Origin: Biomaibacter acetigenes
Lineage (GTDB): Bacteria; Bacillota; Thermosediminibacteria; Thermosediminibacterales; Tepidanaerobacteraceae
Direction: 5' to 3'
NCBI RefSeq assembly: GCF_003691585.1
Contig: NZ_CP033169.1
Span: 1,488,001-1,552,000 of the forward strand
DNA length: 64,000 bases
The notes below the pieces were generated by a model. The model saw only the letters and a program-made list of their open reading frames with translations, was not told where the DNA came from and did not search any database. Positions 5,851-49,540 of this stretch are shown in pieces (the first letter of the stretch is position 1; each line of letters opens with the position of its first letter). Both the position numbers and the translations under genes were made by a program.

Positions 5851-6636
5851 ATGAGTGAAAGTCTATTAGAAAAAACAAGAAGGATCAACAAATTATTGCA
5901 GAGATCTGCAGGATATCCTGTGGATTTTAACGAGGTATGCAAAACACTGGGTGAAGTCCTTACTGCAAATGCCTATGTTGCAAGCAGAAAAGGCAAGGTG
6001 CTGGGTTACTATTTGATGGAAAATTACGATTGCGATGCTGTTCAGGATGAAGTTCTGGAAGAAAAGATGTTCCCGAAACATTATAATGACAAGCTGTTGG
6101 AGATTCACGAAACCAAATCAAATGTATCCCAGGATACTCTGGAGTGCGTGTTCGATAATGTAACAAAATGTCCCCATCCTGATAAACTTACAACCATAGT
6201 TCCGATAAATGGCGGCGGCGAAAGGCTCGGAACCTTGGTACTGGCCAGGTTTGGCGATAAATTTACGGATGAAGACCTGGTTCTGGCCGAATACAGCGCC
6301 ACCGTGGTGGGGATGGAAATCCTCAGGTCAAAGAGCGAGGAGATAGAAGAGGAAGCCCGTAAGAAAGCCGTGGTACAGTTGGCCATAGGAACTCTGTCTT
6401 TCTCGGAACTGGAAGCGGTGGAACATATTTTTGAAGAACTGGATGGCAATGAAGGCCTGCTGGTGGCCAGCAAGATTGCCGATAGGGTGGGCATAACCAG
6501 ATCGGTTATTGTCAATGCTTTGAGGAAATTTGAAAGCGCCGGCGTAATTGAATCCAGGTCTTTAGGTATGAAGGGAACTTACATCAAAATATTAAATGAT
6601 AAACTTCTTGAAGAATTGAAAAAAGTTAGAGCTTAA
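5851..6636 (+). CDS. codY: GTP- and branched-chain amino acid-sensing global repressor CodY
   Basis: Global regulator of low-GC Gram-positives that senses GTP and branched-chain amino acids. The N-terminal GAF domain covers roughly residues 1-155 ([29 protein letters not shown]). The C-terminal winged helix-turn-helix has the signature [20 protein letters not shown] followed by [19 protein letters not shown]. Length is 261 residues, typical for the family. The ATG has AAGGAGG seven bases upstream. It ends the protease operon, is followed by an intrinsic terminator, and precedes the flagellar operon as in Bacillus. Confidence 0.97.
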
Positions 6637-6645
6637 TACCCGGGG

Positions 6646-6678
6646 AAAAATGCGTGATAAAATTCACGCATTTTTTTT
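6646..6678 (+). terminator. intrinsic terminator after codY
   Basis: TGCGTGA (6651-6657) pairs perfectly with TCACGCA (6664-6670) around a six-base loop. An A-run before and an eight-T run after extend the stem and supply the U-tract. It separates the codY operon from the flagellar operon. Confidence 0.9.
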
Positions 6679-6691
6679 GAATAAAGAAGGA

Positions 6692-6720
6692 TTTTAGCGT
6701 TTTTTGTCTAATAATATATC
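6692..6720 (+). promoter_or_regulatory. weak candidate promoter for the flagellar operon
   Basis: TTTTAG (6692-6697) and TATATC (6715-6720) are spaced by 17 bases and lie just upstream of the riboswitch aptamer, where a promoter must be. The match to the sigma-A consensus is modest. No SigD-type pair (TAAA / CCGATAT) is visible here. Confidence 0.35.
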
Positions 6721-6739: not shown

Positions 6740-6866
6740 ATCCCTAAAAAGGCAAACTTCACCGAAAGGGGAGGACGCAAAGCCATAGGGCTAAGGTGCA
6801 CTACGTACTACGCCAGCTAGGCTGCTGAAAGGATAGAATAACTATCTTTTCAAGATAGTTTTTTTT
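6740..6866 (+). ncRNA. cyclic-di-GMP-I (GEMM) riboswitch with terminator platform, upstream of flgB
   Basis: The aptamer core shows the family's landmarks in order: GGCAAAC at 6751, a GAAA tetraloop at 6764 capping a stem, GGACGCAAAGCC at 6773-6784, GGGCTAA, and AGCTAGGCTGCTGA near 6815-6828. An intrinsic terminator follows: AACTATCTT (6840-6848) pairs with AAGATAGTT (6852-6860) and runs into a T-tract to 6866. AAAGGATAG (6828-6836) can instead pair with CTATCTTTT (6842-6850), giving a mutually exclusive antiterminator of nine pairs. Pairing of ATCC (6740-6743) with GGAT (6831-6834) in the bound aptamer would favour termination, so I infer an OFF switch. Clostridioides difficile has a comparable switch before flgB. 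Confidence 0.88.
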
Positions 6867-6922
6867 ATACAGTGTAAAATTAATGTAAAATGCATGATCT
6901 AAAAAAAGGAGAATTAATTTTT

Positions 6923-6979
6923 TTGGCGAATTTAGTTAAATTAGACGAAACCAGCAAAAAAAGGTCGAAAAAGGGGTGA
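6923..6979 (+). CDS. possible 18-residue leader ORF before flgB (uncertain)
   Basis: A TTG at 6923 is preceded by AAAGGAG ten bases upstream and opens a frame of 18 codons with a lysine/arginine-rich end (ETSKKRSKKG). It stops at 6979, ten bases before the flgB start. The last bases of the ORF double as the flgB ribosome binding site, so translation could be coupled. It has no recognisable domain and may be chance. Confidence 0.2.
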   Translation: MANLVKLDETSKKRSKKG

Positions 6980-28776: not shown

Positions 28777-29641
28777 GCAGGCTTCGAAGCTAAAAAAAAT
28801 TATGGATGAGAAACACCATCGCGAAGCACCCCAGGGAACTCTAAAAGTTTATTGTGTTACCAGCGGTAAAGGGGGAGTGGGTAAAACAAACCTATCGATC
28901 AATTTATCCTTAGTATTACAGGAATTGGGTAAAAGAGTCCTGCTGGTAGATGCCGACCTGGGCCTGGCCAATGTAGATGTAATTGCCGGGCTTTACCCAA
29001 AATACAATATTTCTCATATACTGAGTCGCGAGAAAACCATAAATGAGATCATACTGGAAGGCCCCATGGGGATAAAAATATTGCCGGGAGCTTCGGGCCT
29101 TTATGAAATGGCCAATTTATCGATAATGGAATTAAATTTTTTGATAAAAGCGTTTAATAGTATTTCTCAGGATTTTGATATTGTTGTTATCGACACCGGT
29201 GCCGGTATATCAAAACATGTATTGAGTTTTGTTCGATCATCGGACGAAGTCATTATCGTGACCACTCCGGAACCAAGCGCTATTACCGATGCCTATGCTG
29301 TAATAAAATTAATTTATAAGTATTCTCAAAAAATACATGTCATTATAAATAGGGTTGATAATTTCAGAGATGCTGAGTTTACCGTTCAAAAAATATCGAA
29401 TGCTTCTCGTAAATTTTTACATACCGATATCGATTATCTTGGATATGTGCTGGAAGACAGGAGCGTTTTCAAATCGAATATGGAACAAATCCCTTTTTAT
29501 ACTAGATTTCCTGAGAGCCTGGCTTCCAAATGTATTGCAAATCTCGGGAGGAAACTTCTATACGGGGAACAAAAACCGGTTCAATATAACTACACCTTTG
29601 AGAGTTGGGTAAAAAAACTCATGGCTTTTCTAAGAAACTAA
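28769..29641 (+). CDS. flhG: flagellar number/placement ATPase FlhG (YlxH, MinD-like)
   Basis: MinD-family ATPase that partners FlhF. It has the deviant Walker A SGKGGVGKTNLSINLS, a switch region LLVDADLGLANVDV and IVVIDTGAGISKHVL. Residues 3-10 (EQASKLKK) resemble the DQAxxLR activation helix known to stimulate FlhF GTPase. Length is 290 residues. The start overlaps the flhF end by eight bases. Confidence 0.94.
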   Translation: MYEQASKLKKIMDEKHHREAPQGTLKVYCVTSGKGGVGKTNLSINLSLVLQELGKRVLLVDADLGLANVDVIAGLYPKYNISHILSREKTINEIILEGPMGIKILPGASGLYEMANLSIMELNFLIKAFNSISQDFDIVVIDTGAGISKHVLSFVRSSDEVIIVTTPEPSAITDAYAVIKLIYKYSQKIHVIINRVDNFRDAEFTVQKISNASRKFLHTDIDYLGYVLEDRSVFKSNMEQIPFYTRFPESLASKCIANLGRKLLYGEQKPVQYNYTFESWVKKLMAFLRN

Positions 29642-29658
29642 ACAGGGGTGCTAAACAG

Positions 29659-30303
29659 GTGGATTATACAACATTTCAAGTGGGTATGAAAGTAAATATC
29701 GAAATAGAAAGAGGAGATGGAAACTTTTTTTTCCCTTCCAAAGTAGAAGATATAGAATTGGGGAATCTGGTTTTAGATATACCCATGAAGGGAAATCAAC
29801 TCTTCCATATAGGTTTGAATGAATCTGTCAACATACATTTTTTCAAAGGGGATTCCTTTTATTATTTCATCGGGAAAGTAGTAGGGAAAAAATATACCCC
29901 TATTCCCGTATTGCACGTAAAACCTGCCAGCCCACCTATAAAAAATCAAAGAAGGGATTTTTTTAGAATAAAAGTAACTTTAAAAGTCAAGATAAGCCTT
30001 CTTGATACAGGTGAATGGGCAAATGGTTATATCAAAGATATAAGCGGCAGTGGCGCCCTGATTACTACGAATCGGGAGTTAAAGAAGGGAGATTTGATTA
30101 ATTTAGAGATTACTCTTGTGTCAAAAATACTTGAAGTAAAAAGCAGAGCTGTTAGAGTCTGGAAAGAGGAGCGGTCCCAATGCTCCAACATGTATTATGT
30201 GGCCGTTCAATTTGTAGATATTGACGAGGTTAAACAGGATGAAATAATTAAATTTGTTCTTGCAGAACAAAGAAAACTGATCAAAAAGGGTTATAAAGTA
30301 TAA
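29659..30303 (+). CDS. PilZ-domain cyclic-di-GMP receptor, YcgR-like
   Basis: A 214-residue protein with an N-terminal YcgR-type beta domain (residues ~1-95). The C-terminal PilZ domain carries both ligand motifs: the arginine motif in NQRRDFFRIKV and the Asp-x-Ser-x-x-Gly motif in IKDISGSGALI. YcgR/YpfA/DgrA proteins of this kind brake the flagellar motor when c-di-GMP is high. I place the start at the GTG at 29659, after AGGGGTG; an upstream in-frame start would overlap flhG. In Bacillus this position holds cheB. Confidence 0.9.
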   Translation: MDYTTFQVGMKVNIEIERGDGNFFFPSKVEDIELGNLVLDIPMKGNQLFHIGLNESVNIHFFKGDSFYYFIGKVVGKKYTPIPVLHVKPASPPIKNQRRDFFRIKVTLKVKISLLDTGEWANGYIKDISGSGALITTNRELKKGDLINLEITLVSKILEVKSRAVRVWKEERSQCSNMYYVAVQFVDIDEVKQDEIIKFVLAEQRKLIKKGYKV

Positions 30304-33471: not shown

Positions 33472-33922
33472 AGTGGCAAAATCACCAGCTATACTGGTCT
33501 CTTTAGGCCTGGGGTCATGCGTGGGCGTTGCCCTTTATGAGCCAACAAAAAAAATAGGCGGCCTTGCCCATGTTATGCTGCCTGACAGCAGTCTTAGCGG
33601 TAAAAAGGATTTCAATCCCGGAAAATTTGCCGATACCGCCATAGATATGATGATACAAGACATGGTAAAGATTGGAGTAGACCCCAAAAGGTTAACAGGT
33701 AAAATTGCCGGTGGAGCTCAAATGTTCCAGATTAAATCCGACAGCAGCATTATGCAGATAGGAAGGCGAAATGTGGAGGCTGTAAAGTCAAAGCTTGCCC
33801 TGCTAAACATCAAAATATTATCGGAAGATGTAGAGGGAAATTACGGAAGAACAATTGAGTTTAATTGTGAAACCGGTGAACTTACCATCAGGACTATAGG
33901 GCATGGCATTAAAAAAATATGA
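33434..33922 (+). CDS. cheD: chemoreceptor glutamine deamidase CheD
   Basis: Deamidates receptor glutamines and is controlled by CheC. The catalytic Cys lies in LGSCVGVALYEP and the His in GGLAHVMLPDS. Later motifs are KIAGGAQMF, IGRRNVEAVKSKL and GRTIEFN. Length is 162 residues. The TTG start follows GGAGTGAG by five bases and lies inside cheC, suggesting coupled translation of the two partners. Confidence 0.94.
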   Translation: MVGTVRVGMAEYKVAKSPAILVSLGLGSCVGVALYEPTKKIGGLAHVMLPDSSLSGKKDFNPGKFADTAIDMMIQDMVKIGVDPKRLTGKIAGGAQMFQIKSDSSIMQIGRRNVEAVKSKLALLNIKILSEDVEGNYGRTIEFNCETGELTIRTIGHGIKKI

Positions 33923-33938
33923 TACCCGGGGTGGTAAG

Positions 33939-34676
33939 ATGGAAGCTCTCAGGGCGGATAGATTATGGGCGGATTATAATGACACTAAGGACAAGAAAAT
34001 CAAGGAACAGCTTGTAGAAAGTTATATTCCGCTGATAAAGCACATAGTAAATCGGATGGCCATTAGTCTACCTTCCTATATTGATAGTGAAGATTTGATA
34101 AGTTATGGTATTTTTGGTTTATTACAGGCTATTGAACGTTATGACGCTTCCAAAGGCGTGAAATTTGAAACATACGCTTACGCACGAATAAAAGGATCCA
34201 TAATTGACGAATTGAGGAAACTGGATTGGATTCCACAAAATATTAGAAAAAAAGCCAAACTCCTGCAAAAGGCATATGCTGAATTGGAACAAAGCCTGGG
34301 TCGTACGGTAAAGGATGAGGACATATGTAATTATCTGAATTTGTCCAATGATGAGCTGCAGAATTTGTATAATGAAATTGCCTTTACCACTGTACTTTCT
34401 TTTGATGATTTACTTTTTACTGAAGATTACATGAGGGAGTCAGTCAGGCCTGATATAATGGCTGAAAAAAAGGAGGTAAAAAGGTTACTGGGACAGGCTA
34501 TAAACCGTTTGCCTTATCAGGAAAAACTGGTTATTACACTATATTATTATGAGGGCTTAACCTTAAAGGAAATATCCAAGGTTTTAGAACTGTCCCAGGG
34601 GAGGATTTCCCAGCTTCATACAAAGGCAATTTTAAGATTGAGGGGTAGTTTGAGTAGAAAGCGGGCTATTTTTTAA
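33939..34676 (+). CDS. sigD: RNA polymerase sigma factor SigD/FliA
   Basis: Alternative sigma-28 for late flagellar, motility and chemotaxis genes. Region 2 is IDSEDLISYGIFGLLQAIERYDASKGVKFETYAYARIKGSIIDELRKLDWIP. Region 3 covers SLGRTVKDEDICNYLNLS. Region 4 is LPYQEKLVITLYYYEGLTLKEISKVLELSQGRISQLHTKAILRLR. I choose the ATG at 33939 (245 residues), which aligns with the usual SigD N-terminus. Longer in-frame starts overlap cheD. Its place late in the operon couples its synthesis to basal-body transcription. Confidence 0.95.
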   Translation: MEALRADRLWADYNDTKDKKIKEQLVESYIPLIKHIVNRMAISLPSYIDSEDLISYGIFGLLQAIERYDASKGVKFETYAYARIKGSIIDELRKLDWIPQNIRKKAKLLQKAYAELEQSLGRTVKDEDICNYLNLSNDELQNLYNEIAFTTVLSFDDLLFTEDYMRESVRPDIMAEKKEVKRLLGQAINRLPYQEKLVITLYYYEGLTLKEISKVLELSQGRISQLHTKAILRLRGSLSRKRAIF

Positions 34677-49324: not shown

Positions 49325-49540
49325 TGATATACCAATGGATTATGATGGAGAATAGTAAAAAGCATTTTTGATGTAAAGAGAGCAGTTCTCATGGGCTGAA
49401 AAGGCTGCCATCAAAGGCTTTTGAACCCGGCTCCAGAATCTGCAGAAATGCCGGTGGTGCCGTTATACATTAAGAGGATTTCACCAAGTAGGGTGGTACC
49501 GCGATAAACCTTCGCCCCTTCAATGCGAGGGTTTTTTAAT
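49325..49540 (+). ncRNA. T-box leader for prolyl-tRNA synthetase
   Basis: The T-box sequence AAGTAGGGTGGTACCGCG (49486-49503) is diagnostic. It is followed by the terminator AAACCTTCGC (49506-49515) pairing with GCGAGGGTTT (49525-49534) and a T-run. Upstream lies a long stem I region with GAGAGCAGTTCTC. The segment GAACCCGGC near 49422-49430 offers CCC or CCG as a proline specifier codon, consistent with the proS gene downstream. Uncharged tRNA-Pro should favour antitermination. Confidence 0.93.

Follow-up and report, generated by a model that had tools for sequence, protein, structure and literature searches.

The leader of flgB in Clostridioides difficile contains a class I c-di-GMP riboswitch, Cd1 (Cdi1_3), which functions as an OFF switch both in vitro and in vivo and yields a terminated RNA of ~160 nt (PMC3649979, PMC6366702). 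This leader is transcribed from a SigmaA promoter and the 338 nt separating the terminator from flgB contain an invertible element, the 'flagellar switch' (PMC5386303). The class I aptamer Bc2 of B. thuringiensis is conversely an ON switch (PMC6366702) and, with such an example known from Bacillus, membership in the family cannot by itself indicate polarity. SigmaH promoters of C. difficile consist of AGGAWWW positioned about 11-12 bases before a GAAT box, for example AAAGGAAATTGTAGGTAGTTTATCGAATTG (CD3458) (PMC7438776, Table 3).

The flgB leader described here lies in the window, a 64-kb stretch of DNA to which all positions refer, and shares with Cd1 the aptamer family, the first gene, control by termination, the geometry of an OFF switch and the approximate size of the terminated RNA, expected to be ~150 nt here. 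It differs in a SigmaH-like rather than SigmaA candidate promoter upstream and in a distance from terminator to flgB of ~120 nt, occupied by a second SigmaH-like site in place of the invertible element. It is well supported that this is the same kind of switch as in C. difficile, placed before the corresponding gene of a separate lineage and with different promoter candidates, and thus ordinary in kind. The logic of the C. difficile flgB riboswitch is thereby extended to a clostridial-type order that is clearly distinct, with OFF wiring that can be read. Sequence and computation establish the aptamer, both mutually exclusive hairpins with their conservation, and the order of the genes. We infer the ligand, polarity and start sites of what is in all probability a c-di-GMP-I riboswitch that serves the flgB flagellar/chemotaxis operon as a transcriptional OFF switch located in its leader.

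Aptamer identity and gene context

A covariance-model search with the c-di-GMP-I family, as proposed in the first-pass annotation, returned a significant, full-length match (RF01051 in Rfam, model positions 1-87) at 6741-6829 on the forward strand, scoring 77.5 bits (E 1.7e-13) against a curated cut-off of 35 bits. The c-di-GMP-I (GEMM-I) class named in that annotation is therefore confirmed, the ligand itself being deduced from the class. No pair is broken in the model alignment and the expected letters are present at all three ligand-contact positions, G6751, A6779 and C6825. These are likely ligand contacts, equivalent by alignment to G20, A47 and C92 in Vc2 numbering (PMC4744006). An aptamer that has degenerated, or that is specific for another cyclic dinucleotide, would be in keeping with the decayed orthologue found in one relative (G013) and with the existence of variant families such as RF03167, one of which is represented in this genome. 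However, RF01051 is the best-fitting family for the flgB-leader aptamer, the model pairs are all intact and a G occupies the position that aligns with Vc2 G20, making such a change of function highly improbable.

The leader is preceded by codY (5851-6636, forward strand; NF003170, 411 bits; TIGR02787, 393 bits), from which it is separated by a terminator-like hairpin at 6643-6679 on the forward strand (-17.7 kcal/mol, z -5.3). The downstream gene had been called flgB and this is borne out, as the product of the forward-strand frame 6989-7393 matches TIGR01396 with 120.7 bits against a cut-off of 59. flgB is the first gene of a long flagellar and chemotaxis run that includes flgC, fliF, flgE, fliY, flhA, cheA, cheW/C/D and fliA/sigD (33903-34676) and extends to about 34.7 kb, with FlgC, FliF, FlhA and FliA identified among the products. 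A PilZ/YcgR flagellar brake gene is located inside the operon (29605-30300, forward strand). Since PilZ/YcgR proteins are a family of c-di-GMP receptors, c-di-GMP may act on transcription and on the motor alike. The genome encodes 8 GGDEF domains and contains 11 class I and 3 class II c-di-GMP riboswitches, a gene content which makes it very likely that this organism makes and uses c-di-GMP as a signal. Elsewhere in the window, a T-box leader is detected at 49333-49522 on the forward strand (101 bits).

Exclusive hairpins and the predicted polarity

The 3' end of the aptamer can enter two alternative structures, all on the forward strand. The outer P1 is formed by AUCC (6740-6743) and GGAU (6831-6834) and comprises only 4 pairs. 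Its 3' strand is contained within the 5' arm of an antiterminator, UGAAAGGAUAG (6826-6836), which forms 11 pairs with CUAUCUUUUCA (6842-6852) across the loop AAUAA. This 3' arm is in turn common to the 5' arm of an intrinsic terminator (6840-6868), in which AACUAUCUU (6840-6848) and AAGAUAGUU (6852-6860) form a 9-pair stem, with only two G-C pairs, that is closed by the loop UUC and followed by a U-run. P1 alone conflicts with the antiterminator, P2 and P3 being compatible with it. Two exclusive nine-pair hairpins with a shared arm had been proposed previously; the exclusivity, the shared arm and the length of the terminator stem stand, the antiterminator being longer than proposed. The strings quoted in that proposal are all present where it placed them and its suggestion that P1 takes the antiterminator arm agrees with the overlap described above. 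When two hairpins, each with 8 pairs or more, that have one arm in common and precede a T-run were searched for, none of 3000 dinucleotide shuffles contained such an arrangement and no other place in the window did so on either strand.

Constrained folding with the same aptamer core gave -33.8 kcal/mol for the antiterminator state and -30.8 kcal/mol for P1 plus terminator, a gap of ~3 kcal/mol that does not exceed the uncertainty of such models. The antiterminator being thus the preferred state of the RNA in the absence of ligand, the default should be ON, with ligand required to shift the equilibrium to OFF. In folds of the growing chain, P1 forms first and the antiterminator follows after 6848-6852 has emerged.

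The geometry is that of an OFF switch, with the antiterminator using the 3' strand of P1 and the terminator excluding the antiterminator. In the proposed mechanism, RNA polymerase would start near 6720 and, with ligand absent, the P1 3' strand would enter the 11-pair antiterminator, allowing transcription to continue into flgB. With c-di-GMP bound, the aptamer would keep P1, joined to the junction by the ligand, and so free the shared arm, 6842-6848 of which would then pair with 6852-6860 and stop transcription at the U-run by about 6868. The claim that high c-di-GMP ends transcription before flgB is thus consistent with the geometry and with the experimentally determined OFF behaviour of the C. 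difficile flgB counterpart, polarity here being predicted. Readthrough favoured by c-di-GMP would have a precedent in class I switches that are ON, such as Bc2 (PMC6366702), but at this locus it is the antiterminator and not the terminator that takes the P1 strand, an arrangement kept in three relatives (G001, G004 and G018). An ON switch is therefore the least probable of the readings considered here, with hardly any likelihood left to it.

Retention and decay of the riboswitch among relatives

Thirty flgB loci were compared, comprising the window and 29 relatives, and RF01051 is found immediately upstream of flgB in 10 of them. Intact leaders that keep the OFF logic number four, that of the window and those of G001, G004 and G018; in an automatic search, a clean terminator with alternative pairing was detected only in these and in G014. 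The same automatic search detected no convincing antiterminator in the distant flgB leaders L033, L036 and L038 or in many paralogues. Across five leaders, 91% of the cells in the alignment of aptamer, P1 and terminator are paired, compared with 34-50% when the sequences are slid, and 9 pairs are changed on both sides. P2 and P3 are retained and covary in this whole-structure test and the 7-pair core of the terminator is paired in all five leaders. The antiterminator considered alone shows one two-sided change in the five sequences, a covariation that does not exceed that of shuffles (210 of 500), and the evidence for this element is consequently its complementarity and not strong covariation.

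Two leaders illustrate how the pairing is maintained. In G018, three segments differ jointly, namely the P1 strand, the shared arm and the terminator arm, having changed from AAGGATAG/CTATCTT/AAGATAG to AGGGATAG/CTATCCC/GGGATAG, every pair of the 7-pair core being kept and P1 being extended to 6 pairs (UAUCCC/GGGAUA). In G014, unrelated sequence does the same job, as AGGCUGCC in the aptamer can pair with GGCAGCCU in the terminator, taking the 3' end of the aptamer.

The riboswitch is patchy, having decayed, been deleted or being absent in most of the order, so that among close relatives it is kept, decayed or deleted before the same gene. The G013 aptamer scores 33 bits, below the cut-off, with a broken P2 core and an antiterminator containing four bad pairs next to an intact terminator. 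By eye, what is left in G002 is the aptamer's 5' flank alone and in G023 the terminator alone, which resembles that of G022. This decay and these remnants suggest that the switch was probably lost several separate times.

SigmaH-like sites on either side of the terminator

The SigmaH consensus is RNAGGAWWW-N11..12-RNNGAATWW. The motif class is clearly real in this genome, which contains 109 exact matches with the N11 spacer compared with 1 for the reversed control, including one directly before spo0A and others before genes that by eye are HPF-like, DivIC-like and Spo0F-like. A sigH gene is present (TIGR02859, 373 bits). The candidates described below have the same box arrangement as the C. 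difficile SigmaH promoters, a likeness by motif only. SigmaH-like sites with at most 1 mismatch lie within 400 bases of flgB at 24 of the 30 loci, whereas shuffles gave an expectation of 2.3 and a maximum of 6 in 100.

The best promoter candidate upstream of the aptamer is the SigmaH-like element GAAGGATTT-N11-GTCTAATAA at 6686-6714 on the forward strand, with 1 mismatch to RNAGGAWWW-N11-RNNGAATWW, from which a start site would be expected at about 6720. The element is also present in G001 and G004 and in relatives that are devoid of the riboswitch, with 1 mismatch in L023-L025, L027 and L029 and 2 mismatches in L026 and L030. In two of the relatives without the riboswitch, L024 and L027, GAAGGATTT-N11-GTCTAAT occurs twice upstream of flgB, the copies being 101-111 nt apart. 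A SigmaA promoter for the leader was also considered and rejected, as no forward-strand sequence preceding the aptamer reached 9 of 12 matches.

A second candidate, AAAGGAGAA-N11-GGCGAATTT at 6905-6933 on the forward strand, is situated downstream of the terminator and upstream of flgB. It too has 1 mismatch, and as the window contains 6 such sites against 3.2 by chance, a lone site of this quality means little; the evidence is its conservation. Identity between the window and G001/G004 is 90-93% across the site and 55% across the preceding spacer (6869-6899), the equivalent sites in G001, G004 and G018 match the consensus with 0 mismatches and near-consensus counterparts occur in relatives without the riboswitch. 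The conserved element (6902-6931) could instead mark where translation of a short leader peptide of 18 codons begins, with its ribosome-binding site and a TTG start codon at 6923, since AAAGGAG is found at a normal distance before the TTG and the start of the frame is alike in G001 and G004. However, relatives differ in both the length and the sequence of the frame and L018 and L020 have lost the TTG, whereas the N11 spacer between AGGAWWW and the second box is preserved; a conserved peptide was therefore rejected and this reading of the element is improbable.

A conserved site between terminator and flgB indicates that gating of the operon may be incomplete. The first-pass annotation had described the flagellar operon as gated, of which the presence of the riboswitch before flgB stands and the completeness of the gate becomes doubtful: if the 6905-6933 candidate is active, part of flgB transcription may escape the c-di-GMP gate. 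Tentatively, and with confidence that falls somewhat short of even, we suggest that two SigmaH-type promoters flank the c-di-GMP terminator, one gated and one ungated, such that entry into stationary phase could override the brake. An ungated promoter would also explain the repeated decay of the riboswitch in the order without silencing of flgB. The literature searched contained nothing on point that combines a SigmaH promoter, a c-di-GMP riboswitch and a flagellar operon.

A strong downstream promoter would leave the gate with little influence on flgB. A real aptamer could then be trimming only one of two inputs, or be in the course of being lost, with the flgB operon transcribed mainly from 6905-6933. 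The conservation of the site and the abundance of the exact motif in the genome, with one copy directly before spo0A, speak for this, as do the decayed aptamer of G013 and the remnants in G002 and G023. Against it, the site in this genome deviates from the consensus within AAAGGAGAA, 1-mismatch sites are not rare by chance and the riboswitch pairing is fully kept here. Predominant transcription from the downstream site is thus unlikely, if deserving of attention. The two candidate promoters flanking the riboswitch are what most merits a test, and the promoter-like site past the terminator serves as a warning that a riboswitch before an operon does not prove that the operon is transcribed exclusively by way of it. 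A further conserved element, GTCGAAAA at 6964-6971 on the forward strand, lies just before the flgB ribosome-binding site and is found in 10 of 22 flgB upstream regions from order- and class-level genomes (mononucleotide-shuffle mean 0.08); its sequence suggests a likeness to a Spo0A box.

In a separate region of the genome, the Spo0A model matches piecewise in two reading frames (G000:C1:1728780-1729550, minus strand), the frame appearing to shift and then return, which reflects an error of assembly or else a disrupted spo0A. Several other c-di-GMP aptamers were noted. An aptamer at G000:C1:127611-127695 (L005, forward strand) fits the variant family RF03167 (c-di-GMP-I-GGC) and precedes an HD-GYP-like gene. 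Two class I aptamers, both weak and identical in their 5' flanks, occur at 322447-322536 and 325589-325677 of the same contig (L127, forward strand); no terminator was found downstream of either and, by eye, one of them at least, the second, continues into a sigma-factor-like ORF. Ahead of a gene for a SipW-like signal peptidase, one c-di-GMP-I aptamer and one c-di-GMP-II aptamer are arranged in tandem (L122, G000:C1:3227397-3227683, minus strand), and the 117 nt that separate them contain a possible ORF of 35 codons; such a two-class tandem is unusual to our knowledge. A class II aptamer, preceded by an exact SigmaH-like site, lies before the gene for a PilB-like ATPase of type IV pili (L163, G000:C1:1761672-1761755, minus strand). 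In C. difficile, the c-di-GMP-II riboswitch Cdi2_4 is likewise located before type IV pilus genes and belongs to an aptamer class other than that of the flgB leader. By this analogy, C. difficile and the present organism may have in common an opposed OFF/ON control of flagella and pili.
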